A stretch of 64,000 nt of DNA. Source: Marinobacter caseinilyticus (GTDB lineage Bacteria > Pseudomonadota > Gammaproteobacteria > Pseudomonadales > Oleiphilaceae). Below the pieces are notes generated by a model, which had not been told where the DNA came from, did not search any database, and saw nothing but the letters and a program-made list of their open reading frames with translations. Where the stretch lies: the NCBI RefSeq assembly GCF_011074955.1, contig NZ_WUQJ01000023.1, positions 92,953-156,952 of the forward strand. The letters are read 5' to 3'. Below, piece by piece: positions 43,488-60,677 of this stretch (the stretch's first letter is position 1; every line of letters starts with the position of its first letter). Made by a program: the position numbers and the translations under genes.

Positions 43488-44210
43488 CTAGACGCCCAGA
43501 TAGTTGTTCAGCATGGCTTGCTTGGCTTCAAGCTCCCCGGCGCTGATTTCCTCCGCAATCAGGCCGTGTTCCATCACGTAGTGACGGTCGGCCAAGGGGG
43601 CGGCGAAATGGAAATTCTGTTCCACCAAAATGATGGTCAGGCCTTTCTCTTTCAGCTTGATCAGCACCTCCGCCAGTTTTTCAACAATAACCGGCGCCAG
43701 GCCTTCGGTGATCTCATCCAGCAACAGCATGTTGGCCCCGGTGCGCAGGATGCGGGCCATGGCCAGCATTTGCTGCTCCCCTCCTGACAGCTTAGTGCCC
43801 ATGCTGAGCCGGCGCTCGTAGAGGTTGGGGAACATGTTGTAAATTTCTTCCAGCGCCATGCCGCCGCTGCGCACTACCGGCGGCAAGGTCAGGTTTTCCT
43901 GAACGTTGAGCTCGGAAAATATGCCGCGGTGTTCGGGACAGTACCCGACGCCCAGACGGGCAATGTGGTGAGGCGGGCACGACATGGTTTCCTCACCGTT
44001 GATCATGATGGAGCCGGTACGGCGGCCCACCATGTTCATGATGGCCTTGAGGGTGGTGCTGCGCCCGGCGCCGTTGCGCCCCAGCAGGGTGACCAGCTCG
44101 CCGCGGTTAACCACCAGGTCAATGCCATGAAGGATGTGGGACTCGCCATAAAATGCGTGCAACCCGGATACCCGCAGCTGTTCGTATTCCTTTTGCGGCG
44201 CCTGGCTCAT
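43488..44210 (-). CDS. livF: Branched-chain-type ABC transporter ATP-binding protein (LivF-like)
   Basis: A 240-residue ATPase. Walker A reads GRNGAGRSTT with arginine in place of the usual lysine, a variant common in one LivF subgroup. The signature is KLSGGEQQML, and Walker B LLLDEITEGLAPV has isoleucine where proline is usual. The end LVEQNFHFAAPLADRHYVMEHG is typical. The start overlaps the LivG-like stop by four bases. Confidence 0.94.
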   Translation of the reverse strand: MSQAPQKEYEQLRVSGLHAFYGESHILHGIDLVVNRGELVTLLGRNGAGRSTTLKAIMNMVGRRTGSIMINGEETMSCPPHHIARLGVGYCPEHRGIFSELNVQENLTLPPVVRSGGMALEEIYNMFPNLYERRLSMGTKLSGGEQQMLAMARILRTGANMLLLDEITEGLAPVIVEKLAEVLIKLKEKGLTIILVEQNFHFAAPLADRHYVMEHGLIAEEISAGELEAKQAMLNNYLGV

Positions 44211-45004
44211 TCGGAGGCCTCCTGGTTCTCTGGTGCACTGGCTGATGGGCTGTTTGAAGACTTGCCCATGTAGACTTCCCGCACCTTCGGATCGTTGGAG
44301 ACTTTTTCGTAGTCGCCCTCGGTCAGCACTGAGCCCTGAGACAGCACCGTGATGCGGTCACACAGCTTACTCACCACGCCGAGGTTGTGTTCCACCATCA
44401 ATACCGTGCGGCCCTGGGCTGCCTTGCGCACCAGTTCCACCACCCGGTCGACGTCTTCGGCACCCATGCCCTGGGTAGGCTCGTCAAGCAACAGCAGTTT
44501 GGGCTCCATGGCGAGCGTGGTGGCCAGTTCCAGCGCCCGCTTGCGGCCGTAGGCCAGCTCGACGGTGGTGGTGTTGGCAAATTCGGTCAACCCGACCTGG
44601 TCCAACAGGGCCATGCTGCGCTCATTCAACGCGTTCAGGCTGTTGCCGGATTTCCAGAAGTGAAAGGAGTGCCCCTCAAAACGCTGCAGCGCCACACGGA
44701 TGTTCTCCAGTGCGGTCATGTGCGGGAACACCGCCGAAATCTGAAACGAGCGCACCACCCCTTTGCGGGCGATAGCGGCGGATTTCATGGAGGTGATGTC
44801 GTCACCCATGAACAGGATCTTGCCCCGGGTAGGAATCAGGAATTTGGTGAGCAGATTGAAGACCGTGGTCTTGCCCGCACCATTGGGTCCGATCAGAGCA
44901 TGGATATGACCGCTCTGAACCTTCAGGTTAACGTCGTCGACAGCCACAAAGCCTTTGAACTCTTTGACAAGGCCCCGGGTCTCCAGAACAAACTGGTCAC
45001 TCAT
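44207..45004 (-). CDS. livG: Branched-chain-type ABC transporter ATP-binding protein (LivG-like)
   Basis: A 265-residue ATPase, first gene of the transporter operon. Walker A GPNGAGKTT, Q-loop region VVRSFQISAVFPHMTALENI, and Walker B LLLDEPTQGMGAEDV are present; the signature is degenerate (ELAYGRKRALELA), as usual in LivG. I prefer the ATG at 45004, preceded by AAAGG, over one at 45040. The predicted LiuR-controlled promoter would start transcription only a few bases before 45040. Confidence 0.93.
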   Translation of the reverse strand: MSDQFVLETRGLVKEFKGFVAVDDVNLKVQSGHIHALIGPNGAGKTTVFNLLTKFLIPTRGKILFMGDDITSMKSAAIARKGVVRSFQISAVFPHMTALENIRVALQRFEGHSFHFWKSGNSLNALNERSMALLDQVGLTEFANTTTVELAYGRKRALELATTLAMEPKLLLLDEPTQGMGAEDVDRVVELVRKAAQGRTVLMVEHNLGVVSKLCDRITVLSQGSVLTEGDYEKVSNDPKVREVYMGKSSNSPSASAPENQEASE

Positions 45005-45053
45005 GTGCCATATACCTTTCGTTTTTGTTGTAATACTCATCTAATGCTGCGAC

Positions 45054-45083
45054 AGATTAGATTGACGTATACGTAAGCGTCAA
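45054..45083 (-). promoter_or_regulatory. LiuR-like operator and promoter of the Liv-type operon
   Basis: TTGACGTATACGTAAGCGTCAA (two 20-base-or-shorter dyads, 45062-45083) shares the ACGTAWACGT core with the liuR promoter. On the minus strand it reads TTGACGC-TTACGTATACG and is followed, as at liuR, by the hexamer TAATCT (45054-45059). The spacer between TTGACG and TAATCT is 18 bases. It overlaps the stop codon of the hydrolase gene upstream. Confidence 0.7.
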
Positions 45084-45913
45084 ACAAAACCTTCACCTTT
45101 TCGACCGTTCACTATGAGCAAAAAGTCGTAGATGAGCGCCAACACCCGCTCTGGCTGCTCCAGATGCGGGGCATGACCCGTGCCTTCGATAAAAGCCGCC
45201 CGGGCATTCGGCCCGATACCATCAACGATGTCAGTGACCTGTTCCGGCACCCCGTATTCGTCGTCTTCACCTTGCATAATCAGGGCCGGGCAGTCGATGA
45301 CGTCCATCCAGTGAGAGAAATCAAGCCATTGCTGGAAGCCCTCATCGAGCCAGATGCCGTGCCACGCCCGAAACAGCTCATCGGTGCGCTCGCCATGATG
45401 GCGCTGTAGTTTTTCCCGCAGGCCTTTGTCATAGCGCGCCATCATCGCCCGAATACCGGACTCCGTGAGGTGATCGGCCCAGGTGTGCGCCGCGATGGTC
45501 ACCAGCCCACGGGCCCGGGAGCCGAGGGCGCCGGCGGCCACCAGGGCAATGGAGCCGCCGTCACTGTGACCGATCAGCACCACTTCGTTAATGCCCAGCG
45601 CGTCCAGCAACCGGGGCAGCCAGATTGCGCCCTCGTCTTCCTGGTAACGGTAAGGCCGCGGCAACACCTCGTCGGTGGAGGCACCATAGCCCTGGCGTTC
45701 ATACACCAGCACATCAAGGCCGGTACGTTCCGCAAGCTGGGCCGGGAAACGCTTCCACAAGGCAATGTTGCCCAGTGACTCGTGCAGGAACACCACCGTC
45801 GGGCCACGGCTGGCCGGGTGACAGATCCGCTGCGCCTGAAACACCACGCCATCGCCCAACGGCACGGCAAGATCGAGAACGTTCAAGACCTCACCTTGGC
45901 CTGGGTATGGCAT
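45080..45913 (-). CDS. Alpha/beta hydrolase
   Basis: A protein of about 277 residues with the alpha/beta-hydrolase fold. FLHESLGNIALWKRFP gives the oxyanion region, IGHSDGGSIAL the nucleophilic serine, and GTGHAPHLEQPE the histidine. No signal peptide is seen. The start is uncertain: the ATG overlaps the thioesterase gene by 23 bases without a ribosome site, while a TTG at 45886 has AAGGTGAGG just before it. It is third in an operon with an acyl-CoA ligase and a thioesterase; it may cleave a CoA ester or lactone. Confidence 0.85.
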   Translation of the reverse strand: MPYPGQGEVLNVLDLAVPLGDGVVFQAQRICHPASRGPTVVFLHESLGNIALWKRFPAQLAERTGLDVLVYERQGYGASTDEVLPRPYRYQEDEGAIWLPRLLDALGINEVVLIGHSDGGSIALVAAGALGSRARGLVTIAAHTWADHLTESGIRAMMARYDKGLREKLQRHHGERTDELFRAWHGIWLDEGFQQWLDFSHWMDVIDCPALIMQGEDDEYGVPEQVTDIVDGIGPNARAAFIEGTGHAPHLEQPERVLALIYDFLLIVNGRKGEGFV

Positions 45914-46307
45914 AGGTAATGGTGGCCTGCGCCACGGGATCGGCCATGCCAACCGAATGCACCAGTACTTCGCCAACGCCCATCGTTCTGCCCACCCGCA
46001 ACAACGTCGCCCTGGCCGTGATGTCGGTGTGGGCGACAGGCTTGCGGAGAAAGTTAATATTGAGATTGCTGGTAACCGCCAACGGCACCAGACCGATCCG
46101 GCTGAGCAGCGCGGCATACAGTGCCACGTCGGCAAGCCCCATCATTGCAGGGCCCGATACGGTGCCGCCCGGTCGCAGGTGTTCTTCCGTCACCTCCAAC
46201 ACCATTTCGGCCCAGCCATCACCCAGACTCTGCAGGGTGCCGTAGCGCTCACCCTGGGGGAACTGCTCGGCCAGAAACGCCCGCAACTCGTCTACCGTTA
46301 CCGTCAT
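45891..46307 (-). CDS. PaaI-family thioesterase
   Basis: A 138-residue hotdog-fold thioesterase. GGTVSGPAMMGLADVALYAAL holds the catalytic aspartate and is typical of PaaI/YdiI members; NLNINFLRKP follows. The start overlaps the ligase stop as ATGA, so both are translated together. It may act as a safety valve releasing CoA from acyl-CoA esters made by the ligase. Confidence 0.88.
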   Translation of the reverse strand: MTVTVDELRAFLAEQFPQGERYGTLQSLGDGWAEMVLEVTEEHLRPGGTVSGPAMMGLADVALYAALLSRIGLVPLAVTSNLNINFLRKPVAHTDITARATLLRVGRTMGVGEVLVHSVGMADPVAQATITYAIPRPR

Positions 46308-47953
46308 TGCGCAATTTCGTCTTTGGCCTGCTTGCGTAGAACGAAGCGTTGAATCTTGCCGCTCGGTGTTTTCGGCAGTTGCTCAACAAATTCGATTTCC
46401 CGCGGGTAGGCGTGGGTCGACAGCCGACGGCGAACCAGCGTCTGCAGCTCCTCCTTCAAGGCGTTCTCATCCACCGGCTCCTGACCGGAGCGAATCACTA
46501 CATAGGCCTTGATGATGGAGCCACGCTTCTCGTCGGGTTTGGCGACCACACCGGATTCGGCCACCGCACTGTGTTCCAGCAAGGTACTCTCCACATCCGC
46601 AGGCCCAACCCGGTAGCCGGCCGTGGTGATGATGTCATCGTCGCGACCACTGAAAGAGAAGCTGCCATCGCCATGACAGATGGCCATGTCGCCGGTGAGG
46701 TAATAGCCGTTCACAAACGGGTCTTTCTCCCCCCAGGTGTAGCCGTCAAAATGGAACAGCGGCGACGCTTTTACGTCCACCGCCAACTGGCCCACTTCGC
46801 CCTGACCCACCTCTTCGTTCTGCTCGTTCAACGCAACGACACGGTGGCCGGGTGAGGAGTAACCCATGGCTCCCTGGCGCTTCAGGTGTGACAGGCCGTG
46901 GAAATTGCAGCAGGTCATGCCGGTTTCGGTCTGACCGTAGTGGTCCAGCACCGGGCAATGGTGGCGGCGCTCAACCCAGTTGGTCACCTCCGGGTTCAGC
47001 GGCTCACCGGCACTGCTGGCGACCCGCAAGCCAAGCACTTCGCCTTCCGGCAACACGTCATCGTTGGCTTTCAACAGGCGGTACGCGGTCGGTGCCGCCG
47101 CCAGATTGGTGATCTTGTACTTGCGGATCATGTTGTAAGTGCTCTCCGGGGTGAACGCGCCCGGATTAAAGTGCGTGGCGTGGCCCATCATCAGCGGGCC
47201 AATCACCGCGTAATACAGACCATAAGCCCAACCCGGGTCGGCCACGTTCCAGAACACGTCGTCGTCCCGCAGGTCGATGGCGTACTTCATATACACGTAA
47301 AACGCCAGCAGAGCCTTGGCCGGCACCGCAACGCCTTTGGCCTTGCCCACGGTGCCGGAGGTAAACATCTGCAGGAACGGGTCGGCGCCGGTAATCATCA
47401 CTGGTTCAAACTGATCCGACTGCTGCGCCAGCACGGCCTTGAAATCGGACACATCGCTGCCGGTGTCGGCGGCGTCAACACACAGCGCCGGCGGGCAGCT
47501 GGCTACCTCATCCAGCTTGGGGAAATTGGTGGCGTCGGTGACGACCAGGCGGGTGCTGGCGCGTTCGAGGCGGTATTCGATCGCACCGGAACCAAACGCC
47601 GTGAACAGGGGTTGATAGACCGCACCGGCGCGCAACGTGCCGGCGATCACGATCAGCAATTCCGGGCCCCGGGGCAGCAAACCGGCAACGCGATGGCCTT
47701 TGCCAATACCCTGGGAGGCCAGATAGTTGGCAAAGCGCGCGGCGGCGGCCTGCAGTTCAGCAAAGGTCAGCTTACCGGCGCCGCCATCAGGTTTCTCCCA
47801 GTACAGAGCCACCCGCGCAGGGTCGGCCGCCCATTTGTCACAGATCTCGGTACAGACGTTCAGACCGGTGCTCAGGCGCCCCTCCAGAATGTCGGCTTCC
47901 AGGGCAGCGGGATCGAAGTTGTCGTAGACGGATGTGTATTCCGGGAGGCTCAT
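46304..47953 (-). CDS. AMP-binding acyl-CoA synthetase (acetyl-CoA synthetase-like)
   Basis: A 549-residue ANL-superfamily ligase. FTSGTVGKAKGVAVP is the P-loop region, VADPGWAYGLYY and HYGQTETGMTC are substrate-pocket and adenine motifs, and PSGKIQRFVLR at the end has the catalytic lysine. It resembles medium-chain and acetyl-CoA synthetase-like ligases. A LiuR-like palindrome lies 61-78 bases upstream, and the divergent operon codes for branched-chain 2-oxoacid dehydrogenase. Activation of a branched short-chain acid, such as isobutyrate or 2-methylbutyrate, is plausible but unproven. Confidence 0.9.
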   Translation of the reverse strand: MSLPEYTSVYDNFDPAALEADILEGRLSTGLNVCTEICDKWAADPARVALYWEKPDGGAGKLTFAELQAAAARFANYLASQGIGKGHRVAGLLPRGPELLIVIAGTLRAGAVYQPLFTAFGSGAIEYRLERASTRLVVTDATNFPKLDEVASCPPALCVDAADTGSDVSDFKAVLAQQSDQFEPVMITGADPFLQMFTSGTVGKAKGVAVPAKALLAFYVYMKYAIDLRDDDVFWNVADPGWAYGLYYAVIGPLMMGHATHFNPGAFTPESTYNMIRKYKITNLAAAPTAYRLLKANDDVLPEGEVLGLRVASSAGEPLNPEVTNWVERRHHCPVLDHYGQTETGMTCCNFHGLSHLKRQGAMGYSSPGHRVVALNEQNEEVGQGEVGQLAVDVKASPLFHFDGYTWGEKDPFVNGYYLTGDMAICHGDGSFSFSGRDDDIITTAGYRVGPADVESTLLEHSAVAESGVVAKPDEKRGSIIKAYVVIRSGQEPVDENALKEELQTLVRRRLSTHAYPREIEFVEQLPKTPSGKIQRFVLRKQAKDEIAQ

Positions 47954-48371: not shown

Positions 48372-49559
48372 ATGTCGACAACAACAAAGTCCGGCGTTAG
48401 CCATACGCCGAAATTTACCGACGGTGCGGAGTTCCGGATTCCCACCTTTAAGATGCTCAAGCAGGACGGCAAGCTCTACAAGGGCGTAAAAGAGCCGGAC
48501 CTTGATCGCGAAAAGGCCTTGCGCATCTACCGGGCAATGATTACCACCCGGGTACTCGATGAACGCATGCTGGCCGCCCAGCGCCAGGGCCGTTTGAGCT
48601 TTTACATGCAATGCACCGGGGAGGAAGCTGCCGTCATCGGCAGTACCGCCGCCCTGGACGACGCCGATATGATCATGGCGCAATACCGTGAGCAGGGCGC
48701 CCTCGCCTATCGCGGCTTTACCATCGACGAGTTCATGAACCAGCTGTTCGGCAACGAACTGGACTACGGCAAGGGTCGCCAGATGCCGATCCACTATGGT
48801 TCCAGCAAGCTCAACTACATGACCATTTCGTCACCGCTCGCCACCCAGATACCCCAGGCCACCGGCTATGCCTATGGCCAGAAACTGGCCGGCGACGGCC
48901 ACTGCACCATTGTCTATTTTGGCGAAGGCGCGGCTTCGGAGGGCGATTTCCACGCCGCCCTGAATATGGCCACCGTGCATCGGGTGCCGGTCATCTTCCT
49001 GTGCCGCAATAACGGCTACGCGATTTCCACCCCCGCGACCGAACAATTCGCCGCCGACGGTGTCGCCCCCCGCGCCTATGGCTACAAAATGGATGTGATC
49101 CGGGTCGACGGCAACGACATTCTGGCCGTCCACGAAGCCACCCGCGCGGCCCGCCGCATGGCGGTGGAAGAAAACCGCCCGGTGCTGATCGAGGCCATGA
49201 GCTACCGGCTGGCGGCGCATTCTTCATCGGACGACCCCTCGGGCTATCGCAGCAAGGACGAAGAAGCGGTCTGGCGCGAAAAAGACCCGATTCTGCGCAT
49301 GCGGCATTGGCTGGAACACCGCCAGTGGTGGAGCGAAGACGAGGAGAAGCACCTGCAGGAAACCTTGCGCCGCGAGGTGCTGGAGACCATGAAGCGCGCC
49401 GAAAAGCGTCCACCGCCGCCACTGGAAAGCCTGGTCACCGATGTTTACGACACCGTGCCGCCGGCGCTGCAGGCGCAGTTCGAAAAACTGAAGGTGCATA
49501 TCCGCAAGTACCCGGAGGCGTACCCCAAGAGCGCCAGCCACGCCAAGGGAGGGTCATGA
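48372..49559 (+). CDS. bkdA1: 2-oxoisovalerate dehydrogenase E1 component, alpha subunit
   Basis: A 395-residue thiamine-diphosphate E1 alpha subunit. [19 protein letters not shown], the thiamine-binding [17 protein letters not shown], and the phosphorylation-loop-like [20 protein letters not shown] are clear. The SHSTSDD-type loop is the same region phosphorylated in mitochondrial BCKDH; here it reads [12 protein letters not shown]. It decarboxylates the 2-oxoacids of Val, Leu and Ile. The internal ATG was chosen for AGAGG and because homology begins there. Confidence 0.94.
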
Positions 49560-49560
49560 C

Positions 49561-50538
49561 ATGGCTAAGATGAATATGCTACAGGCCATCAACGACGCCC
49601 TCGACACGGCCATGGCGGCCAATGACCGGGTGCTCTGCTTCGGTGAGGATGTGGGTGTTTTCGGTGGCGTGTTCCGAGCCACCAGCAACCTGCAACAGAA
49701 GTACGGCAAATCCCGCTGTTTCAACACGCCACTGGTCGAACAGGGCATCATCGGCTTTGCCAATGGCCTCGCGGCCCAGGGTTCAGTGCCGGTCGCGGAG
49801 ATCCAGTTTGCCGATTACATCTTTCCCGCCTTTGACCAGATCGTGAACGAGTCGGCCAAGTTCCGTTACCGCTCCGGCAACCTGTTCGATGTCGGTCGGT
49901 TAACCATTCGCGCGCCCTACGGCGGCGGCATTGCCGGCGGGCTCTACCACTCGCAGTCACCGGAAGCCTATTTTGCCCACACACCGGGGCTGAAGATCGT
50001 GGTGCCACGCAATCCGCACCAGGCCAAAGGCTTGCTGCTGGGCGCCATCCACGACCCGAACCCAACGTTGTTCTTTGAGCCCAAACGACTGTATCGCGCG
50101 TCCGTTGGCGACGTACCGGAAGGCGATTACCAGTTGCCGCTGGGCGAGGCTGAAATCCTCAAGGAAGGCACCGATGTGACCTTGCTGGGCTGGGGTGCGC
50201 AAATGGAAGTGATCGAACAGGCAGTCGAAATGGCTGAAAAAGATGGCATTTCCTGCGAAATAATCGATCTTCGCACCATTCTGCCCTGGGACGCGGACAC
50301 CGTTGCCAGCTCCGTCTTCAAGACCGGCCGGCTGGTGGTCACACACGAAGCGCCGCTGACCGGCGGGTTTGCCGGCGAAATCGCCGCCACCATACAGGAG
50401 CGTTGCTTTCTGTACCTGGAATCCCCCATCGCCCGGGTGACTGGCCTGGATACCCCTTTCCCGCTGGTGCTGGAAAAGGAACATCTACCCAATCATCTGA
50501 AAGTGTATGACGCCATCAAAGCCAGCGTCGATTTCTAG
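49561..50538 (+). CDS. bkdA2: 2-oxoisovalerate dehydrogenase E1 component, beta subunit
   Basis: A 325-residue E1 beta subunit with transketolase pyrimidine-binding and C-terminal domains. [48 protein letters not shown] and [22 protein letters not shown] are characteristic of branched-chain rather than pyruvate E1. GGGAGGG lies before the start, one base after the E1-alpha stop. Confidence 0.95.
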
Positions 50539-50564: not shown

Positions 50565-52172
50565 ATGAGTGATTTTATTCTGCCCGATATCGGCGAAGGT
50601 ATCGTGGAGTGCGAGTTGGTGAAGTGGCTGGTCAGCGAGGGCGACCTGATCGAGGAAGACCAGCCGGTAGCGGAGGTCATGACCGACAAGGCACTGGTGG
50701 AAATTCCGGCGCCCTATAAAGGCCGGGTTACCCGCCTCTACCACCGGGAAGGCGACATCGCCAAGGTGCACGCGCCGCTGTTTGCGCTGGTGGACGAGAG
50801 CGGCAAGGCGCACGACAACAGTGACAAAAACCCTACGGATGCAGCAACGCCCCGGTCGCCCGTGCCCGACACCGGCCCTCAAACCGAGGCGGTCGTGACC
50901 GGCGACAACGTCACCGAGGATTTCATTTTGCCGGATATCGGCGAAGGCATTGTCGAATGTGAGGTGGTGGAGTGGCGTGTCGCGGAGGGCGACGACATTG
51001 AGGAAGACCAGCCGGTGGTCGATGTCATGACCGACAAGGCCGTGGTTGAGATCACCGCGCCCAAGGCCGGCCGGGTCTCCCGCTTGTACTGCAAGAAGCA
51101 GGAGATTGCCCGGGTGCACGCACCGCTGTTTGCGTTTGTGCCCCGTGACCGCGAGACCCCAGCCGACACGGGTTCCCAGGCCGAGGTGGCTTCACAGGCG
51201 CCCTCCGCCCCGGCACCGGACCGGCCACCAGCCCCGGCCAAATCGACCGGCGGCAATCGACAACGCATCCCGGCCAGTCCGGCGGTCAGGCGGCTGGTGC
51301 GGGAACACAACCTGCAGTTGGCCGACATTGCCGGGTCAGGCAAGGATGGCCGGGTGCTGAAAGCCGACATCCTGGCTCACCTGGATCAGCCTGCAAAAGC
51401 CACCACGGCTGAACCCAGGGCCGAGGGGCAGGCTCAGGCCAGACCCCGTCGCGGCACAGCCGACCAGGAGGTGCGGGTCGAGCCGATCAAGGGCATGCAG
51501 GCGGTGATGGCGAAACGCATGGTGGCGTCGGCAACCACCATCCCGCACTTTATTTACAGCGAGGACATCGATGTCACCGCCCTGCAGGCTCTGCGACAGC
51601 AGCTGAAACCCGAAGCCGAGGCACGGGGTTCGCGACTGACGCTGATGCCGTTCATCATGAAAGCGATGGCGCTGGCGGTGAAAGACTTCCCGATCCTGAA
51701 CAGCCAGGTCAACGAGGCGGTCACCGAGATCCGCTACCAGCCCCAATGCAACATCGGCATGGCGGTGGACAGCAAGGCAGGCCTGATCGTGCCCAACGTC
51801 AAAGATGTCGGACAACTGACCCTGCTGGAAATCGCCGATGAAGTTGCACGCCTGACCTCGGCCGCCCGTGAGGGCCGGGTGAATCAGGCCGACCTCAAGG
51901 GTGGCACCATCACCATCTCGAACATTGGCGCGCTCGGTGGCACCTACGCGGCACCGATCATCAATGCCCCCGAGGTGGCCATTGTGGCACTGGGCCGCAC
52001 CCAACGCCTGCCACGCTTCGACGCCAGTGGCCAGGTGGTGGAAAAAGCGATCATGACGGTCAGCTGGGCGGGCGATCATCGCATTATTGATGGCGGCACC
52101 ATTGCGCGCTTCTGCAACTGCTGGAAAGGCTACCTGGAATCACCGCAGTCGATGCTGCTGCATTTGGGTTAA
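50565..52172 (+). CDS. bkdB: Branched-chain 2-oxoacid dehydrogenase E2 with two lipoyl domains
   Basis: A 535-residue dihydrolipoyl acyltransferase. Two lipoyl domains carry MTDKALVEI (lysine about 41) and MTDKAVVEI (lysine about 157), joined by Pro/Ala-rich linkers. A peripheral-subunit-binding domain follows (RIPASPAVRRLVREHN, about 233-270). The catalytic domain ends with HRIIDGG (histidine about 505). Most branched-chain E2 proteins have one lipoyl domain, so the duplication is of note. No E3 (dihydrolipoamide dehydrogenase) gene follows; E3 is presumably shared from elsewhere. Confidence 0.94.
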   Translation: MSDFILPDIGEGIVECELVKWLVSEGDLIEEDQPVAEVMTDKALVEIPAPYKGRVTRLYHREGDIAKVHAPLFALVDESGKAHDNSDKNPTDAATPRSPVPDTGPQTEAVVTGDNVTEDFILPDIGEGIVECEVVEWRVAEGDDIEEDQPVVDVMTDKAVVEITAPKAGRVSRLYCKKQEIARVHAPLFAFVPRDRETPADTGSQAEVASQAPSAPAPDRPPAPAKSTGGNRQRIPASPAVRRLVREHNLQLADIAGSGKDGRVLKADILAHLDQPAKATTAEPRAEGQAQARPRRGTADQEVRVEPIKGMQAVMAKRMVASATTIPHFIYSEDIDVTALQALRQQLKPEAEARGSRLTLMPFIMKAMALAVKDFPILNSQVNEAVTEIRYQPQCNIGMAVDSKAGLIVPNVKDVGQLTLLEIADEVARLTSAAREGRVNQADLKGGTITISNIGALGGTYAAPIINAPEVAIVALGRTQRLPRFDASGQVVEKAIMTVSWAGDHRIIDGGTIARFCNCWKGYLESPQSMLLHLG

Positions 52173-52181
52173 GCTTTCACC

Positions 52182-54032
52182 ATGGCGCAACCAAACCAGT
52201 CCCAGCTACAGCAGTTTTACATCCCGGAAGAGCAGTCGATTTACCTGCTCAGTCACGACGATGCCAAGAAGCTCAAGGACTGGGTGGCGCTGTGCGCCAC
52301 CCAACTCCGGCAGTTGGGTTACCAGGACATCGAGATGATCGGCAAGGGCGCATACGGCTTCGTCTTCGCCGGCCGGCTGGAACTGGAAGGCGTCCGTGAT
52401 CTTGAGCATGTGTTCAAGTTCACTCGCGTCAACCTGCCACAACACCTGCAGGACCGCCTCGAGGATGAGGCCTTCATCTTGCAACAGGTCGAGCACCCCC
52501 GGGTGCCGCGCCTGATTTCCTATCAGCGGGCCCGCAATCAGCCGATTCTGGTGATGGAGCGGGCCGCCGGTATTAACCTGGAAGAAGTCTCACTACAGGA
52601 GGGGCGCTTGCCGCCCAGGCTGGTGGTGCGCATCGCCGACCAGTTGGCGGACATCCTGCGCAACCTGCGACGCGAGGCTGGGCCGGCGGGACGGCCCATC
52701 GTGCACGGCGATATCAAGCCCTCGAACCTGGTGTTTGATGCCGAGCACGAAACCATTGCGCTGATCGACTGGGGCTCGTCGGTGTTTGCACAGCTGGATG
52801 AAAACCAGCAGTTCGTTACCGCAAACGTCATGGAGCTGATGTCGGACAACCTGCAGCAGACCAACGCCCGACTGGGCGACGTCTATTTCATTGGCGACGA
52901 GCAGTTGTACGGCGGCCTGTCGTCGCCACGGTTTGACGAACAGGGCGCGGCCGGCACCCTCTATGCCCTGGCCTCGGGGCAGTCGTGCCGGTTCGGCCAC
53001 CGGGCCATTCCGGCCACGTCACTGGGGCTGCCGATGGAATTTGCCCGGATGCTGGACGCCATGCTTGACCCCGACCCGATCAAACGCCAACGGGCCGGAG
53101 ACTATTATCTGAAAGAAATGCCACGCATCGCCCGCACGGTGATGGTCGACCTGCCCGAACCTGCGGTGGCGCCGCTGGTGCCGGTCTGGGTGCGGCCGTC
53201 ACCGCGCGAGATCGACACCGTGGTGTACAGCTCACGCAAATCGTTCCTGCGCCAGGAAGGCGCGCCGGAAACCCTCAATGACGTCAACGACGTCCAGCTT
53301 GACCGTTACTACAAGAACTTCATGCAGGGCATGGGCGAAACCGAGAAGGCGTTCCTGGCGTCGGTGAGCCGGCTCGGACGCTACCCGGTGGAAGGTGGCC
53401 TGGCGGTGCGCTGGGAGACCGATGGCGTCTACGTGGACACCTCGCTGAACCTCTACGACCCCAGCCTCAAGACCGCCTTTGTGACGGCGGTGAACAACAT
53501 GGTCAACCTGGCGCAGGCGATTTACCGTCAAGGCATTTTCAAAAGCTGCCTGTTTAATGCCCGCGACACCCTCCACATTGACCGCGAAGGCCCGGACCAG
53601 CCGTTCATACTGGCGCCGGAGATGCGCCTGCCTTACCAGGTGAGCGCGGCACCGGAGGTGGAAGACCGCTCACGGGTGCATTCCTATTTTGAAGACGGCC
53701 CGGACCCGGAAGAGTTTCTGGTGCTGCCCAAGGCCATCATCACTGCACTGGAAGCCCTGAACACCATTCACCACACCGGCATGATCATCTTCGAGGCACT
53801 GCCCCGCCACCTCAAGATTCACAGCCACTACCGCCTGCTGGACCCGGACCGGGAAGAGGAGTTCTGCCGTCGCCTCGACGAGATCCTCGCCGCGGTCGGG
53901 CACATCGAGGGCCTCGGGGTTTCCGGTTTCATGAAGATGCCGTACAAGGACACCCGGTTCTTCCCCCACATCGAGCATTTGCCTGAGCGTTATTATCCCC
54001 GCAACCCCAGGCAGGATGACACCACCCGCTGA
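52182..54032 (+). CDS. Hanks-type Ser/Thr protein kinase-like protein linked to the 2-oxoacid dehydrogenase operon
   Basis: A 616-residue protein starting nine bases after the E2 stop. The kinase domain (about 45-320) has the glycine loop IGKGAYGFVFAG (about 52), the ATP lysine in VFKFTRV (about 78), hinge ILVMERAAG, catalytic loop HGDIKPSN (about 174) and metal site LIDWGSS (about 195, DWG for DFG). All catalytic residues seem present. The C-terminal 290 residues (LGRYPVEGGLAVRWETDGVYVD, then GHIEGLGVSGFMKMPYKD) are unrecognised. There is no membrane segment. Position suggests control of the dehydrogenase complex, but this is inference. Ribosome site is weak, so translation may be coupled to E2. 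Confidence 0.85.
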   Translation: MAQPNQSQLQQFYIPEEQSIYLLSHDDAKKLKDWVALCATQLRQLGYQDIEMIGKGAYGFVFAGRLELEGVRDLEHVFKFTRVNLPQHLQDRLEDEAFILQQVEHPRVPRLISYQRARNQPILVMERAAGINLEEVSLQEGRLPPRLVVRIADQLADILRNLRREAGPAGRPIVHGDIKPSNLVFDAEHETIALIDWGSSVFAQLDENQQFVTANVMELMSDNLQQTNARLGDVYFIGDEQLYGGLSSPRFDEQGAAGTLYALASGQSCRFGHRAIPATSLGLPMEFARMLDAMLDPDPIKRQRAGDYYLKEMPRIARTVMVDLPEPAVAPLVPVWVRPSPREIDTVVYSSRKSFLRQEGAPETLNDVNDVQLDRYYKNFMQGMGETEKAFLASVSRLGRYPVEGGLAVRWETDGVYVDTSLNLYDPSLKTAFVTAVNNMVNLAQAIYRQGIFKSCLFNARDTLHIDREGPDQPFILAPEMRLPYQVSAAPEVEDRSRVHSYFEDGPDPEEFLVLPKAIITALEALNTIHHTGMIIFEALPRHLKIHSHYRLLDPDREEEFCRRLDEILAAVGHIEGLGVSGFMKMPYKDTRFFPHIEHLPERYYPRNPRQDDTTR

Positions 54033-54470: not shown

Positions 54471-55568
54471 TCAGGCGCGCCGGACTGGCGCCCGATGATC
54501 GTCGGCCAACAGCTCCGCAAAGGTGCAGATCTCGCCACACCGGTCCGGCGCATAACCGGGCAGCTTGTCGATGGCATCGATGAACTCGGCCGACCGCATC
54601 AGGTCCAGCAACGGGTGCAGTTTGTCTTGTCTCAGCAGGTCCTGGTGACAGACCAGCAGGTAGTGTTCGGTGGCAAGGTTGATAAAGTCGAGGCCAAATT
54701 GTCGGGCGGCCGCTTCCACACCGAAACCGGTGTCCGCCATACCGGCGGCAACATAGGCGGCGACGGCGGTATGGGTGAACTCCTCGCGTTCGGCGCCGTG
54801 GATCTGGCCTTCTGAGATGCCACGATCCTTGAGCAGCAGGTTAAACAAAATCCGGGTGCCGGAATGACGGTCGCGGTTGATAAAACGAGTCTCCGGCAGG
54901 GTCAGATCTTTCAGACCCGCGACGGTGGATTGGCTGTTGTGACGAATCATCAGGCCCTGTTCGCGGGTGACGAAGCGAATCACCCTGAGATCGTGTGATT
55001 CCAGCTGGCGGCGGTACAGATCCATGACCTGCGCGGCCAACCGGGGGCAGTCAGGCAGATGAAAACTGGCCAGGTCACAGTCACCACGGCCAAGCGCATT
55101 GAGGGCGTCTTCCGGGTTGCAGTACTGCAGATTCAGGTCCACCCGGTCAGAAAAATCGGGCAACAGCGCCACGGCGTAACCGTGGCTGGCATGCAAACGA
55201 AGTATCGGGTGCGACCCGGCAAACAGCTGCTGGAGTTGATTGCTCAGCTCCAAGGCCATGCTGTCGATCTGGGGGCCGAGTCGGGCCTTCACCCGCTGCT
55301 CCGACCAGAGCAGCTTGTCGCCCAGGGGCGACAAGCGGGTCCCGTGGCCTTTGCGCATCAGGACCAGGGGCATGCCAAAAAAATCGGCGCCGCGGTTGAG
55401 CAAATTCCAGGCGTGGCGATAGGAAATGCCCGCCGCATTGGCGGCAGTGGTGAGCTTGCCGGACTCGCTGATGCTTTTGAGCAGCCGGAACAGCACCGGA
55501 TCAAAAAGTTCACCGTCGTCCGACCGGAACACCCAGGCGGGTGAAATGCTGAGCTTCTTCTTATGCAT
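54471..55568 (-). CDS. ModE-like regulator with substrate-binding domain, formate dehydrogenase-linked
   Basis: A 365-residue regulator. Residues about 20-90 (LFRLLKSISESGKLTTAANAAGISYRHAWNLL) form a ModE/LysR-type helix-turn-helix. From about 120 a periplasmic-binding-protein-like domain follows (LRLHASHGYAVALLPDF, then TRFINRDRHSGTRILFNLLL). Proteins of this build commonly sit divergent to fds operons and respond to molybdate-related or formate signals. It is divergent from fdsG with 92 bases between starts, so it is the likely regulator. Confidence 0.87.
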   Translation of the reverse strand: MHKKKLSISPAWVFRSDDGELFDPVLFRLLKSISESGKLTTAANAAGISYRHAWNLLNRGADFFGMPLVLMRKGHGTRLSPLGDKLLWSEQRVKARLGPQIDSMALELSNQLQQLFAGSHPILRLHASHGYAVALLPDFSDRVDLNLQYCNPEDALNALGRGDCDLASFHLPDCPRLAAQVMDLYRRQLESHDLRVIRFVTREQGLMIRHNSQSTVAGLKDLTLPETRFINRDRHSGTRILFNLLLKDRGISEGQIHGAEREEFTHTAVAAYVAAGMADTGFGVEAAARQFGLDFINLATEHYLLVCHQDLLRQDKLHPLLDLMRSAEFIDAIDKLPGYAPDRCGEICTFAELLADDHRAPVRRA

Positions 55569-55618
55569 AATGCTTCATATTTATCGGCAGTAGACGAAGT
55601 GATAGTTTCAATATAGTG

Positions 55619-55640
55619 GGTTTATCCCCACGGTAAAACC
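55619..55640. promoter_or_regulatory. Palindrome in the fds promoter region
   Basis: An imperfect dyad: GGTTTATCC, four bases (CCAC), then GGTAAAACC. It lies 21 bases before fdsG, just after a TATAGT -10-like hexamer (55612-55617). Position over the transcription start suggests an operator for the divergent ModE-like regulator. Confidence 0.45.
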
Positions 55641-55660
55641 AGTAACAATTAAGAACGGTC

Positions 55661-56227
55661 ATGCATATGTCTGAACGGAATAATTCATATGGTCGTGTTC
55701 AAGGTGGCGCTGCAGCGGTGGCGCACCCGAACAACCCACCGCCGTTTGAAGAATGGACTCCGGACCTGATCCGCCAGCAGGTAGAGGCGCTTAAAGGCAT
55801 GCCCGGCGCCATGCTGCCCATACTGCACGCCGTCCAGGATCGCTTCGGCTACATTCCCGAAGCCGCCGTGCCGATTATTGCGGAATCGCTGCGACAGACG
55901 CGAGCCGAAGTGCACGGCATCATCAGTTTTTATCATCACTTCCGCACCCACCCGACGGGCACCCACGTGGTACACGTCTGTCGCGCAGAGGCCTGCCAGG
56001 CCATGGGTGGCCGACAACTGGAAGCGCACATCAAGGCCAGGCTGGGCATCGATTACCACCAGACCAGCCGGGACAACGAATTTACCGTGGAGCCGGTGTA
56101 CTGTCTGGGCAACTGCGCCTGCGCGCCGTCGATCCGCGTCGGTGACGCCATTCATGGCCGCATGACTGCAGACAAGTTCGACCGCCTGGCCGATCAGCTG
56201 ACCACCACCACCCTGGAGCTGAAATGA
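55661..56227 (+). CDS. fdsG: NAD-dependent formate dehydrogenase, gamma subunit (NuoE-like)
   Basis: A 188-residue [2Fe-2S] subunit of cytoplasmic molybdenum formate dehydrogenase. The thioredoxin-like cluster ligands are in VCRAEACQAMGG (about 106) and YCLGNCACAPS (about 147). FGYIPEAAVPIIAESL is the NuoE-type helical region. A second ATG two codons in is an equally good start. The stop overlaps the fdsB start. Confidence 0.94.
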   Translation: MHMSERNNSYGRVQGGAAAVAHPNNPPPFEEWTPDLIRQQVEALKGMPGAMLPILHAVQDRFGYIPEAAVPIIAESLRQTRAEVHGIISFYHHFRTHPTGTHVVHVCRAEACQAMGGRQLEAHIKARLGIDYHQTSRDNEFTVEPVYCLGNCACAPSIRVGDAIHGRMTADKFDRLADQLTTTTLELK

Positions 56228-57762
56228 TGCCAACGACTGTTTACGTGCCCTGTGACACCACCGCGCTGGCCATGGGCGCCGACCAGGTCGCCACCTTGAT
56301 GGCGCGCGAGGCGGCCGACCGCAATCTGGACATCAACATTGTGCGCAATGGCTCGCGCGGTCTGGCGTGGCTGGAACCCATGGTCGAGGTGGACACCCCC
56401 GATGGCCGGGTCGCCTATGGCCCGGTTGAACCCGACACGGTTGCCGGGCTCGCCGATGCCGGCCTGTTTGAAGGCCTGTCATCGCATCCACTGGCACTGG
56501 GCCGGACCGACGACATTCCCTATCTGAAAAAGCAGCAGCGGCTGACTTTTTCCCGGATTGGTATCACGGCGCCGCTGTCACTGGACGACTACCGCGCCCA
56601 CCAAGGATTTTCCGGCCTGGCCAAAGCACTCAAGCGGTCGCCGCAAGCCATCGTGGATGAGGTTAAAAGCTCCGGGCTGCGTGGACGCGGCGGCGCCGCT
56701 TTCCCCACCGGGATCAAGTGGCAAACTGTGCACGACGAGCCAGCAGGCCAGAAGTACGTTGTCTGCAATGCCGACGAGGGCGATTCCGGAACCTTTGCCG
56801 ACCGCCTGGTGATGGAGTGCGACCCGTTTATGCTGATTGAAGGCATGACCATTGCAGGGCTGGCAGTGGGCGCCACTCAGGGCTACGTTTACCTGCGCTC
56901 GGAATACCCGGTCGCCCACCGGATCTTCAAGGCCGCGCTTGAGCGAGCCTACGACGCCGGTTATCTCGGGGACAACATTCTCGGCAGCGGCCAACGGTTT
57001 GACCTGGAAGTGCGGCTGGCGGCCGGTGCCTATATTTGCGGTGAAGAAACCGCTCTGCTCGACAGTCTTGAAGGCAAGCGCGGCATGGTGCGGGCCAAAC
57101 CGCCGCTGCCCGCCATCAAGGGTTTGTTCGGCCAGCCCACCGTCGTCAATAACGTGCTGTCACTGGCGGCCATTCCCTTCATTCTCGATCAGGGTGGCAA
57201 AGCCTATGCGAATTATGGCGTGGGGCGCTCCCGGGGCACCCTGGCCCTGCAACTGGCCGGCAACATAAAACGTGGCGGGCTGGTTGAGCTGGCGTTCGGC
57301 ATTACCCTGCGGGCGCTGATGGAAGACTTTGGCGGCGGCACACACTCGGGCCGACCCTTGAAGGCGGTTCAGGTAGGCGGCCCGCTGGGCGCCTACCTGC
57401 CGGAAAGTCAGTGGGACTCGCCGATGGACTATGAAGCGTTTGCCGCCTTTGGCGGCGTGGTAGGTCATGGCGGTGTGGTGATGTTCGACGACACCGTGGA
57501 CATGGGCGAACAGGCCCGGTTCGCCATGGAGTTCTGCACCGTCGAATCCTGTGGCAAATGCACGCCGTGCCGAATTGGCGCCGTGCGAGGGGTTGAAGTG
57601 ATTGACCGGATTCGCGCCGGTGACAACCGTGAGGCCAATCTCGAACTGCTGACCGAGCTGTGCGAGACCATGGTGGACGGTTCCCTGTGCGCCATGGGCG
57701 GCATGACGCCCTTCCCCGTGCAGAGCGTAATGAAGCATTTTCCCGATGACCTGGGTGCCTGA
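56224..57762 (+). CDS. fdsB: NAD-dependent formate dehydrogenase, beta subunit (NuoF-like)
   Basis: A 512-residue FMN and NAD-binding subunit. After a thioredoxin-like N-terminal part (about 1-110) come the glycine-rich NADH loop GLRGRGGAAFPTGIKW, the FMN loop NADEGDSGTFADR and GAYICGEETALLDSLEGKRG. The [4Fe-4S] motif ESCGKCTPCRIG is at about 440. It passes electrons from the alpha subunit to NAD. Confidence 0.96.
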   Translation: MMPTTVYVPCDTTALAMGADQVATLMAREAADRNLDINIVRNGSRGLAWLEPMVEVDTPDGRVAYGPVEPDTVAGLADAGLFEGLSSHPLALGRTDDIPYLKKQQRLTFSRIGITAPLSLDDYRAHQGFSGLAKALKRSPQAIVDEVKSSGLRGRGGAAFPTGIKWQTVHDEPAGQKYVVCNADEGDSGTFADRLVMECDPFMLIEGMTIAGLAVGATQGYVYLRSEYPVAHRIFKAALERAYDAGYLGDNILGSGQRFDLEVRLAAGAYICGEETALLDSLEGKRGMVRAKPPLPAIKGLFGQPTVVNNVLSLAAIPFILDQGGKAYANYGVGRSRGTLALQLAGNIKRGGLVELAFGITLRALMEDFGGGTHSGRPLKAVQVGGPLGAYLPESQWDSPMDYEAFAAFGGVVGHGGVVMFDDTVDMGEQARFAMEFCTVESCGKCTPCRIGAVRGVEVIDRIRAGDNREANLELLTELCETMVDGSLCAMGGMTPFPVQSVMKHFPDDLGA

Positions 57763-57788
57763 CAGGCCGGATAACGAGGACACGCACC

Positions 57789-60677
57789 ATGTTGAACTAT
57801 TTCGACCCTGCGACCGAAGGCCTTAACCCAAACCGGGACTACGGCACCCCCGCCCAGCTATCCGAAACCCTGGTCGCGCTCAGCATTGACGGCGTCGACA
57901 TCCGTGTGCCGGAAGGCACCTCGGTGCTGCGCGCCGCCGCGTTGGCCGGCATCAATATTCCCAAGCTGTGCGCCTCCGACAATCTGGAAGCCTTTGGTTC
58001 CTGCCGGTTGTGTGCGGTGGAGGTCGAGGGTCGCCGCGGCTACCCGGCGTCGTGCACCACCCCGGTCGCCGAAGGCATGACTGTGACCACCCAGAACAAC
58101 AAACTGGGCAAGTTGCGTCGCAACATCATGGAACTCTATATCTCGGACCACCCCCTGGATTGTCTGACCTGCCCCGCCAACGGCAATTGCGAGCTGCAGG
58201 ACGTGGCGGGGGCAGTTGGCCTGCGGGAGGTGCGCTACGGCTTTGATGGTGAAAATCACCTCGACGCCGAAACCGACGACTCGAATCCCTATTTCAGCTT
58301 CGACCCCAGCAAATGCATTGTCTGTTCACGCTGTGTCCGTGCCTGTGAAGAAGTTCAGGGTACCTTTGCGCTGACCATCGATGGCCGGGGGTTTGACTCC
58401 AAGGTGTCGGCAAGTCAGAACGAAAACTTCATGGACTCCGAATGCGTCTCCTGTGGTGCCTGTGTTCAGGCCTGCCCGACCTCCACACTGATGGAAAAGA
58501 GCGTCATCGAGGTCGGCCAACCCGAGCACAGCGTGGTGACCACCTGCGCCTATTGTGGCGTTGGCTGTTCGTTCAAGGCCGAAATGAAAGGCAATGAGCT
58601 GGTGCGCATGGTGCCCTATAAAGGCGGCGACGCGAACCACGGTCACTCCTGTGTGAAGGGCCGCTTTGCATTCGGTTACGCGACCCACAAAGACCGCATC
58701 AAAGAACCCATGATCCGGCACACCATCGACGAGCCCTGGCGTGCCGTGAGCTGGGACGAAGCCCTTGGCTTTGCCGCCAGCCGCCTGAAAGCGATTCAGG
58801 CGCAGCACGGTCGTGAGAGCATTGGCGGCATCACATCGTCTCGCTGCACCAACGAAGAAACCTACCTGGTGCAGAAGCTGATTCGGGCAGCGTTCGGCAA
58901 CAACAACACCGACACCTGTGCCCGCGTCTGCCATTCGCCGACCGGTTACGGCCTCAAGACCACCATGGGCGAGTCCGCCGGCACCCAGACCTTCGATTCG
59001 GTGATGATGTCCGACACCATTCTGGTCATTGGCGCCAACCCGACGGACGCGCACCCGGTGTTTGCCTCGCAGATGCGCAAGCGTCTGCGACAAGGCGCCA
59101 AACTGATCGTGGCGGACCCCCGCTACATTGACCTGCTAAAAACACCCCACGGTGGCGAAGGCATTCACCTGCCACTGCGCCCCGGCACCAACGTGGCGCT
59201 GATCAATTCCCTGGCCCACGTCGTTGTCACTGAAGGCCTGGAAGACCAGGAGTTTATTGAGAGCCGCTGTGAACCCAAGGCCTACACTGACTGGCGCAAC
59301 TTTATCAGCGAAGACCGCAATTCACCGGAAACTCTGGAAATGATCACCGGGGTGGCGGCGGCCGACGTTCGTCGGGCGGCTCGAGCCTATGCCCGAGCCG
59401 GCAATGGCGCGATCTATTACGGCCTGGGCGTGACCGAACACAGCCAGGGCTCCACCATGGTGATGGGCATTGCCAACCTGGCCATGGCGACCGGCAACAT
59501 CGGTCGCGAAGGGGTGGGTGTCAACCCGCTACGGGGCCAGAACAACGTTCAGGGTTCCTGCGACATGGGGTCCTTCCCCCACGAATTGCCGGGGTACCAG
59601 CACATCGCCGACGATCTCGTCCGCGGCCGTTTTGAAGCGGTCTGGGGCGTGACGCTCGACAACGAGCCCGGCCTGCGCATTCCCAATATGTTCGATGCGG
59701 CCATTGCCGGTACCTTCAAGGCCATGTACGTGCAAGGTGAGGACATCGCCCAGTCGGACCCCAACACCCACCATGTGGAATCGGCGCTGAAGGCACTGGA
59801 CTGTCTGATCGTGCAGGATATTTTCCTGAACGAAACCGCCAAGTTCGCCCACGTGCTGCTGCCGGGCTCCACCTTCCTTGAGAAAAACGGCACGTTCACC
59901 AACGCCGAGAGACGGATCAACCGGGTCCGCAAAGTGATGCCTGCGGTGGCGGGCCTGGAAGACTGGGAAGTCACCTGCGCCCTGTCCAACGCCCTGGGCT
60001 ACCCGATGCATTACAACCACCCGTCTGAGATCATGGACGAGATCGCCCAACTGACCCCAACCTTTACCGGCGTCAGCTACGACAAACTGGAACAACAGGG
60101 CAGCATCCAGTGGCCCTGTAACGGCGACCACCCGGACGGCACGCCGACCATGCACACGCTGGACTTCCCGATCGGCAAAGGCCACTTCGCGATCACCGAG
60201 TACCTGGCGACCGAGGAGCGCACCAATCGCCGTTTCCCGCTGCTACTGACTACCGGGCGCATCCTGAGCCAATACAACGTCGGCGCCCAGACCCGCCGGA
60301 CCGATAACCGCCAATGGCACCAGGAAGACCTGCTTGAGATCCACCCCAGCGACGCCGAATTGCGCGGCGTGCATGACGGAGACTGGGTCGGCATCTCCAG
60401 TCGCGTGGGCCAGACCGTGCTGCGGGCAAAACTCAGCGATCGCATGTTACCGGGAGTTGTGTACACGACCTTCCACCACCCCGGCAGTGGCGCCAACATC
60501 ATCACCACCGAAAATTCCGACTGGGCAACCAACTGTCCGGAGTACAAAGTAACGGCAGTGCAAGCGGAGAAAGTGTCCCAGCCTTCACAGTGGCAGCAGC
60601 AATTCCGCGACTTCGACAAACGCCAGAAGGAATACCTTGAGCAGGCAGACCAAGATGCAACCACCGCGCTCAAGTGA
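57789..60677 (+). CDS. fdsA: NAD-dependent formate dehydrogenase, catalytic alpha subunit
   Basis: A 962-residue molybdopterin enzyme oxidising formate to CO2. The NuoG-like N terminus has a [2Fe-2S] set (LCASDNLEAFGSCRLC), a His-Cys3 cluster (HPLDCLTCPANGNC) and two ferredoxin clusters (CIVCSRCVRAC, CVSCGACVQACP). A further [4Fe-4S] site (CAYCGVGC) opens the bis-MGD domain. The molybdenum ligand is a cysteine in ARVCHSPTGYG (about 381), not selenocysteine. The length matches characterised FdsA proteins. It overlaps fdhD by 41 bases. Confidence 0.97.
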   Translation: MLNYFDPATEGLNPNRDYGTPAQLSETLVALSIDGVDIRVPEGTSVLRAAALAGINIPKLCASDNLEAFGSCRLCAVEVEGRRGYPASCTTPVAEGMTVTTQNNKLGKLRRNIMELYISDHPLDCLTCPANGNCELQDVAGAVGLREVRYGFDGENHLDAETDDSNPYFSFDPSKCIVCSRCVRACEEVQGTFALTIDGRGFDSKVSASQNENFMDSECVSCGACVQACPTSTLMEKSVIEVGQPEHSVVTTCAYCGVGCSFKAEMKGNELVRMVPYKGGDANHGHSCVKGRFAFGYATHKDRIKEPMIRHTIDEPWRAVSWDEALGFAASRLKAIQAQHGRESIGGITSSRCTNEETYLVQKLIRAAFGNNNTDTCARVCHSPTGYGLKTTMGESAGTQTFDSVMMSDTILVIGANPTDAHPVFASQMRKRLRQGAKLIVADPRYIDLLKTPHGGEGIHLPLRPGTNVALINSLAHVVVTEGLEDQEFIESRCEPKAYTDWRNFISEDRNSPETLEMITGVAAADVRRAARAYARAGNGAIYYGLGVTEHSQGSTMVMGIANLAMATGNIGREGVGVNPLRGQNNVQGSCDMGSFPHELPGYQHIADDLVRGRFEAVWGVTLDNEPGLRIPNMFDAAIAGTFKAMYVQGEDIAQSDPNTHHVESALKALDCLIVQDIFLNETAKFAHVLLPGSTFLEKNGTFTNAERRINRVRKVMPAVAGLEDWEVTCALSNALGYPMHYNHPSEIMDEIAQLTPTFTGVSYDKLEQQGSIQWPCNGDHPDGTPTMHTLDFPIGKGHFAITEYLATEERTNRRFPLLLTTGRILSQYNVGAQTRRTDNRQWHQEDLLEIHPSDAELRGVHDGDWVGISSRVGQTVLRAKLSDRMLPGVVYTTFHHPGSGANIITTENSDWATNCPEYKVTAVQAEKVSQPSQWQQQFRDFDKRQKEYLEQADQDATTALK

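Follow-up and report, generated by a model that had tools for sequence, protein, structure and literature searches.

The mitochondrial branched-chain 2-oxoacid dehydrogenase complex (BCKDH) is under covalent control by BCKDK, which like PDK is a GHKL kinase of 2-oxoacid dehydrogenases and is accompanied in this system by PPM1K. To our knowledge, such covalent control of BCKDH has been treated as a mitochondrial trait. Another described case is that of AceK, the isocitrate dehydrogenase kinase/phosphatase, whose gene lies in the operon of the pathway under control and whose product also carries out the dephosphorylation. The closest bacterial analogue is PknG of Actinobacteria, which is described as acting via OdhI on 2-oxoglutarate dehydrogenase (PMC9769921), and which is reported to contain TPRs and to work by way of OdhI/GarA as inhibitor (PMC8546545). 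Kinase control of a 2-oxoacid dehydrogenase is in itself already known, and what would be new at the locus described here is an unrelated kinase family dedicated to such an enzyme.

This locus of Marinobacter caseinilyticus lies in a stretch of 64,000 nucleotides, the whole of which is called the window in what follows. We favour, with reasonable confidence, the explanation that its kinase is a cytosolic Ser/Thr kinase of Hanks type that is dedicated to the mitochondrial-type BCKDH in Gammaproteobacteria and whose substrate, site and direction of action we infer. The dedication of the kinase to the dehydrogenase complex is strongly supported by gene adjacency and by a co-occurrence that survives separation of the genes. 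Source annotations of the family give generic kinase or phosphotransferase names only, and a search of the literature with thin coverage of subscription journals and preprints returned no description of it.

The kinase gene and the dehydrogenase operon

Table 1. Position of the dehydrogenase subunits, the kinase and its parts in the window
Feature	Position	Strand	Remarks
E1alpha of 2-oxoacid dehydrogenase, mitochondrial BCKDHA type	48372..49559	+	E1_dh 2.4e-97
Ser284 of E1alpha (counted from ATG 48372)	49221-49223	+	aligned to the first serine of HHSTSDDSSAYR of BCKDHA
E1beta	49561..50538	+	Transket_pyr 4.2e-41, Transketolase_C 1.3e-37
E2 acyltransferase	50565..52172	+	2-oxoacid_dh 3.3e-83, two Biotin_lipoyl, E3_binding 3.3e-14
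Soluble Hanks-type protein kinase, 616 aa	52182..54032	+	no Pfam or NCBIfam model is specific to its family
Kinase domain	52293..53135	+	residues ~38-318; non-RD (HGDIKPSN), DWG, degenerate APE (IGDEQ)
C-terminal region of the kinase	53136..54029	+	residues ~319-616; in the samples searched found only in this kinase
Two related alpha-beta modules in the C-terminal region	residues about 380-470 and 511-600		
Conserved HSYFEDGxDPxE motif	residues 500-511		in the C-terminal region

The dehydrogenase genes encode an E1alpha, an E1beta and an E2 with two lipoyl domains and an E3-binding domain (Table 1). Compared with PDB chains, the window E1alpha scores 401 bits against BCKDHA (1dtw, which we take to be the human protein) and at most 240 bits against the bacterial E1alpha chains in the list, namely 1um9 (240, presumably from Thermus), 1w85 (226, presumably the PDH of Geobacillus) and 1qs0/2bp7 (216-217, the former presumably BkdA1 of Pseudomonas putida), so that by sequence comparison it is of the mitochondrial type. 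Model names do not fix the substrate, because the nearest NCBIfam model is that of pyruvate dehydrogenase alpha and the match stays under its cut-off (369.7 vs 411.35). A separate AceE pyruvate dehydrogenase was found in all seven genomes tested, and an E3 gene in all four. By sequence kinship, the dehydrogenase would act on branched-chain 2-oxoacids. The gene that follows E2 in one genome of the order with the operon (G256) matches the amino-acid dehydrogenase model ScyB at 327 bits, below the cut-off of 600, which would fit amino-acid catabolism. At L085, L097, L102, L106 and L114, which are SAR92-type loci and loci of the sister genus, an acyl-CoA dehydrogenase gene lies just after the kinase, and its product in L085, L097 and L106 shows a partial resemblance, below the cut-off, to glutaryl-CoA dehydrogenase; this gene might hint at a wider range of oxoacid substrates. 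We take SO_2339:SO_2341 of S. oneidensis to be orthologues of the window operon. In a fitness study of that species, SO_2339:SO_2341 appear among those of the TCA cycle and related genes when acetate is compared with lactate (PMC3219624).

Around the operon, genes for LIV/Urt-type ABC transporter ATPases, an alpha/beta hydrolase, a 4HBT thioesterase and an AMP-binding acyl-CoA synthetase occupy positions 43488-47953 of the minus strand and run divergently from the bkd genes. The other loci examined did not show this combination, and some of them have generic ABC ATPases or acyl-CoA synthetases nearby. Positions 54474-60677 encode the gamma, beta and alpha subunits of an NAD-linked formate dehydrogenase, and a LysR/PBP-type regulator lies on the opposite strand. 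A promoter scan found nothing.

The kinase ORF starts after a nine-base gap behind the E2 stop (52172 to 52182), as the sequence-only reading of this DNA had stated, and the ATP lysine, the HGDIKPSN and DWG motifs and the lack of a membrane anchor that it had listed are likewise borne out. The residues concerned are Lys79, the alphaC Glu96, the catalytic Asp177 of HGDIKPSN and Asp196 of DWG; in all 72 aligned kinases, the window's included, G54, G56, K79, E96, D177, K179, N182 and D196 are identical. No membrane span was detected in the protein, the highest 19-residue Kyte-Doolittle mean being 1.26. The catalytic loop reads HGD and not HRD, the place of the Arg being taken by Gly in all 72 kinases, which makes this a non-RD kinase, and the APE Glu is retained as E in 54 of the 72, so that the motif departs from the canonical APE form. 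These departures do not exclude membership of the Hanks-type family, since non-RD members of that family exist.

Over the kinase domain, the Pfam model PF00069 (Pkinase) matches residues 47-210 above its cut-off (2.5e-16), and the structure model has a two-lobed protein-kinase fold with a full C-lobe, for which PknB is the best match. In structure searches with the whole model, the named proteins among the matches listed are kinases or kinase-domain enzymes. The kinase domain is also what the PADLOC models (PD-T4-6 and others) match, and among the matches listed none goes beyond residue 323. The Pfam matches of the kinase at E<=1 include no GHKL or BCDHK_Adom3 domain, and its Pfam matches include no PASTA domain; PF10436, the model of GHKL-type BCKDK, gave no match in any of 11 kinase genomes and likewise none in 14 control genomes. 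The window genome carries one copy of the kinase family and one generic kinase match of 25% identity.

The C-terminal part was described in the earlier reading as an unrecognised domain of about 290 residues, a description that withstood every sequence search made. Residues ~320-616 are matched by neither Pfam (E<=1) nor NCBIfam (E<=0.1) models; none of 28 C-terminal pieces scanned alone (that of the window and 27 from homologues, matches at E<=0.1) reaches a Pfam cut-off, and a profile built from the 28 pieces finds no match at E<=10 among PDB sequences. DUF4417 was rejected as a candidate, with two of the 28 pieces matching it, the best of them (L131) at 20.8 bits for a cut-off of 28.9. In the samples searched the region has been seen so far in no other protein: its matches in the order, class and phylum samples sit in open frames of 603-868 aa, which corresponds to the length of this kinase, with the exception of the fragments G427 and G852, of G199 (417 aa, at a contig end) and of the weak match G1079, which contains five stops.

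In the structure model the C-terminal region is alpha/beta, mostly confident, and repeats a helix-strand-strand-helix-strand order, with strands at 403-424, 451-467, 531-552 and 579-585. A single-sequence structure model of the region alone (mean pLDDT 32.8) was set aside. Comparison by hhalign of residues 380-470 with 511-600, boundaries picked after viewing the structure model, gave a P of 6.5e-4 with 77 columns in register (0.001 and 65 columns in the reverse direction), against 0.24-0.53 for seven control windows from the kinase domain, and on this profile similarity the region is probably a tandem duplication. The HSYFEDGxDPxE motif is invariant at columns H500-G506, D508, P509 and E511 of alignment A2.

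Linkage and co-occurrence of the kinase and dehydrogenase genes

Whether the kinase gene consistently adjoins E1/E2 genes was a check that the sequence-only reading itself had put forward. Outside the genus, 42 of 57 kinases lie downstream of E2 and 15 elsewhere; this set comprises 59 loci minus the fragments L115 and L126, and it also leaves aside G191, which counts as linked by coordinates, with an E1alpha 2.3 kb upstream on the same strand. Thirty-three of the linked genes begin within 400 bp of a same-strand E2 and nine at 0.9-2.3 kb downstream. Among 80 named genomes, which share a few species with the 57-locus set, the kinase is within 400 bp in 73 and further away in five (0.9-7.6 kb), one is at a contig end and one is unlinked. 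With 42 of 57 and 73 of 80 linked, the homologues are found mostly beside dehydrogenase genes and not mostly away from them. In seven loci of family f185 (L125, L131, L132, L133, L139, L141 and L143) a conserved ORF (292 aa in L125), presumably RlmJ-type methyltransferase-like, stands between E2 and the kinase.

Fourteen of the 15 genomes with an unlinked kinase carry a mitochondrial-type E1alpha elsewhere, the fifteenth being G315. Seven of these 14 genomes belong to family f6, which includes Saccharospirillum, five to the Shewanella family and two to others. Moreover, G166 and G356, which come from genera with unlinked genes, are without both the kinase and E1alpha. The retention of the two genes after their separation speaks against hitch-hiking, and we regard it as the best evidence for a putative functional link.

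Co-occurrence was assessed in an order sample of 390 genomes with the C-terminal region and E1alpha as separate queries. The E1alpha matches fall into two classes with a wide gap between them, one at >=61% identity (E<=3e-155), which was counted as mitochondrial-type, and the other at <=42% (E>=4.9e-75). Across the samples, generic kinase matches (E>=2e-12) and G1079 (31% identity, five stops) were excluded from the family, and some incomplete genes were counted as present: the kinase of G036, which is in three pieces, those of G077 and G199, which meet contig ends, and the E1alpha of G054, which is in two pieces. In the order sample both genes occur in 49 genomes, only the kinase in two (G315 and G427), only E1alpha in four (G256, G457, G478 and G489) and neither in 335, so that 49 of the 53 genomes with a mitochondrial-type E1alpha retain the kinase, which accompanies this type and not the more distant E1alpha of other genomes in the order. 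The Fisher P of 6e-55 is naive, as the genomes are related and phylogeny is uncorrected, and for this reason the weight is placed on the pattern itself. Eight families have the pair, and in seven of them genomes lacking both genes were also seen. A relatives sample of 195 genomes, mostly of the genus and searched with the whole kinase and E1alpha, gave 85 genomes with both, none with the kinase only, two with E1alpha only and 108 with neither; in both E1alpha-only relatives the contig ends inside E2.

A detailed view of the exceptions shows that the G315 kinase lacks its first ~35 residues, a stretch with a conserved motif, with no such E1/E2 in the 8 kb ahead, and that G427 has only a 66-residue remnant; in the order sample there is thus no full-length kinase without a mitochondrial-type E1alpha. 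G852, another genome without such an E1alpha, carries a kinase fragment at a contig end. On the other side, the four E1alpha-only genomes of the order gave no C-terminal match genome-wide and no trace of a kinase in the 4.5-7.1 kb downstream of E2. Three of them are fragmented assemblies (80 to 580 contigs) and G489 is not (about 7 contigs). From these four operons it seems that the complex can probably work without the kinase. The distance matrices of kinase and E1alpha correlate with an r of 0.75 (0.94 for unlinked pairs, and 0.80 between E1alpha and E1beta), a correlation that looks compatible with common descent and that descent alone would also give.

The kinase is carried by many marine gammaproteobacteria, with Marinobacter, Halomonas, Shewanella, Rheinheimera and members of the SAR92 clade among its hosts, and the close named homologues of the window kinase are mostly from Marinobacter. 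All hosts found are Gammaproteobacteria except for record P0069, named Streptosporangium jomthongense. The kinase copy in this record of actinobacterial name is 84% identical to the window's, and the genome is probably mislabelled or contaminated. A plasmid search gave no match at 1e-30, and a search of viral contigs gave none.

Candidate target and rival explanations

The serine-rich loop that the earlier reading had noticed in the window E1alpha is present, and its first serine, Ser284, stands in the register that we take to be human phosphorylation site 1 of BCKDHA. This position is Ser in 135 of 135 mitochondrial-type E1alpha, a set drawn from overlapping samples with four kinase-less and two contig-end loci included, and the site-2 position is Ser in 116 of the 135, having been lost in some kinase-bearing genomes. 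Among 20 E1alpha of other types, all from operons without the kinase (a kinase gene or a truncated form of it lies elsewhere in genomes G095 and G315), the Ser284 position is Ser in ten and Thr in nine. Because these other types mostly keep Ser/Thr there, the loop serine is no guide to the target: the loop is, as far as the alignment goes, a general E1alpha feature whose conservation neither supports nor excludes Ser284, and with Ser/Thr in 19 of 20 proteins from operons without the kinase it is weak as an argument for control at E1alpha. Other Ser/Thr positions are specific to the kinase-associated subunits, namely E1alpha 153 (counted without Met), E1beta 42 and E2 325, 419, 460 and 512, and may be taken as phosphosite candidates only; the motif at E1alpha 153 is also present in BCKDHA. 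The proposal of an independent bacterial control of BCKDH, made from the letters of this locus, has therefore fared unevenly, since adjacency and co-occurrence uphold a dedicated kinase whose fold is unlike that of mitochondrial BCKDK and the reasoning from the loop serine is weak.

In the explanation that we favour, the kinase would phosphorylate a subunit of the BCKDH complex, most likely E1alpha, and this phosphorylation would determine the flux of branched-chain amino acids into degradation. The duplicated C-terminal region may serve for docking to the complex, for metabolite sensing or for both, as activation-loop phosphorylation would not be the expected switch in a non-RD kinase. As for the direction, phosphorylation would most likely lower the activity at times when branched-chain amino acids have to be saved, as happens in mitochondria. 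The phosphatase might be a general one, given that none was recognised beside the kinase operon in an unsystematic look. A search for PP2C found the domain in open frames of 568-634 aa in all seven genomes tested. In L279 and L280 a PP2C domain is fused to a Hanks kinase domain in proteins of about 590-630 aa, and these fusions adjoin a nitrate/nitrite-like transporter (by eye), not bkd. A more specific form of the idea, a convergent switch in which the Hanks kinase phosphorylates Ser284, the site used by BCKDK, and the C-terminal region tethers it or senses branched-chain oxoacids, is put forward tentatively, as a possibility that we doubt more than we believe.

A kinase that serves BCKDH could also be an activator or assembly factor, with phosphorylation of E2 or E1 being needed for a working complex or for E3 binding. 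Co-retention fits such a role equally well, and the kinase is kept in 49 of 53 E1alpha genomes of the order, as for an essential helper, but four genomes retain the operon without a detectable kinase, and E2 varies widely in length among loci while the kinase is conserved, which makes this role rather unlikely. The target could otherwise be another protein of branched-chain catabolism, a regulator or a transporter, that is merely co-regulated with E1/E2. Such a target would suit a loop serine that does not single out E1alpha, as well as the recurrence of some neighbour families within one lineage, even beside an unlinked kinase (cluster 25 lies near the kinase in L123, L129, L135, L136 and L138, of which L136 is unlinked). 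We nevertheless hold it to be improbable, as only the clusters of E1alpha, E1beta and E2 recur widely by the kinase (41-42 of 57 loci, the next cluster in at most 16) and unlinked kinases still accompany E1alpha in 14 of 15 genomes.

Phosphorylation of a small molecule, as in the HGD-type aminoglycoside phosphotransferase group, is brought to mind by the HGD motif and by an APH match in Pfam above its cut-off (3e-7). The Pkinase match is better, all 72 aligned kinases have the Lys179 and Asn182 that belong to a protein-kinase catalytic loop, and the structure model includes an entire protein-kinase C-lobe and matches PknB best, all of which leave this reading very improbable. Even less credit is due to operon hitch-hiking, by which a kinase unrelated to the dehydrogenase would have been inherited only as its neighbour. 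Descent alone gives some association among hosts that are Gammaproteobacteria (P0069 aside), but the genes have been separated in at least the Saccharospirillum and Shewanella families with both retained, G166 and G356 from unlinked genera are without either, and the genomes with the kinase alone have a truncated copy or a remnant.

If the kinase is indeed dedicated to BCKDH, the same complex would have been placed under phosphorylation control twice, by kinases of different fold, and a simple system would be at hand for asking why BCKDH needs a covalent brake. In this regard, the reading of a dedicated BCKDH kinase supplies a clear substrate hypothesis for an orphan family of bacterial Ser/Thr kinases.

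Comparison with the mitochondrial and bacterial systems

As in the case of AceK, the kinase gene of the window is placed in the operon of a pathway, whose control by this kinase is our proposal. AceK itself is an unrelated type of kinase and also dephosphorylates. PASTA kinases such as PknB and StkP differ in another way, as the window kinase is without PASTA domains and without a membrane span and has HGD instead of HRD. Closer is the PknG-OdhI/GarA-OdhA system, where a Hanks-type kinase is likewise tied to a bacterial 2-oxoacid dehydrogenase, control being at the stage of a proposal for the window kinase. Here the dehydrogenase is BCKDH instead, no OdhI/GarA-like inhibitor gene was recognised near the operon in an unsystematic look, and the C-terminal region is alpha/beta in the model, unlike the all-helical TPR region of PknG.

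With the mitochondrial system, the window kinase would share the enzyme itself: like BCKDK it is soluble and is proposed as dedicated to the same dehydrogenase, with an E1alpha of BCKDHA type that retains a serine in register with site 1. Unlike the GHKL kinases BCKDK and PDK, it has, as known here from sequence and model, a Hanks/PknB fold and a different accessory region, and, in contrast to the pair of BCKDK and PPM1K, no phosphatase was recognised beside it in the same unsystematic look. That genomes tend to have or lack the kinase and a mitochondrial-type BCKDH jointly suggests that bacteria possess a phosphorylation control of their own for this enzyme, alongside the one described in mitochondria.
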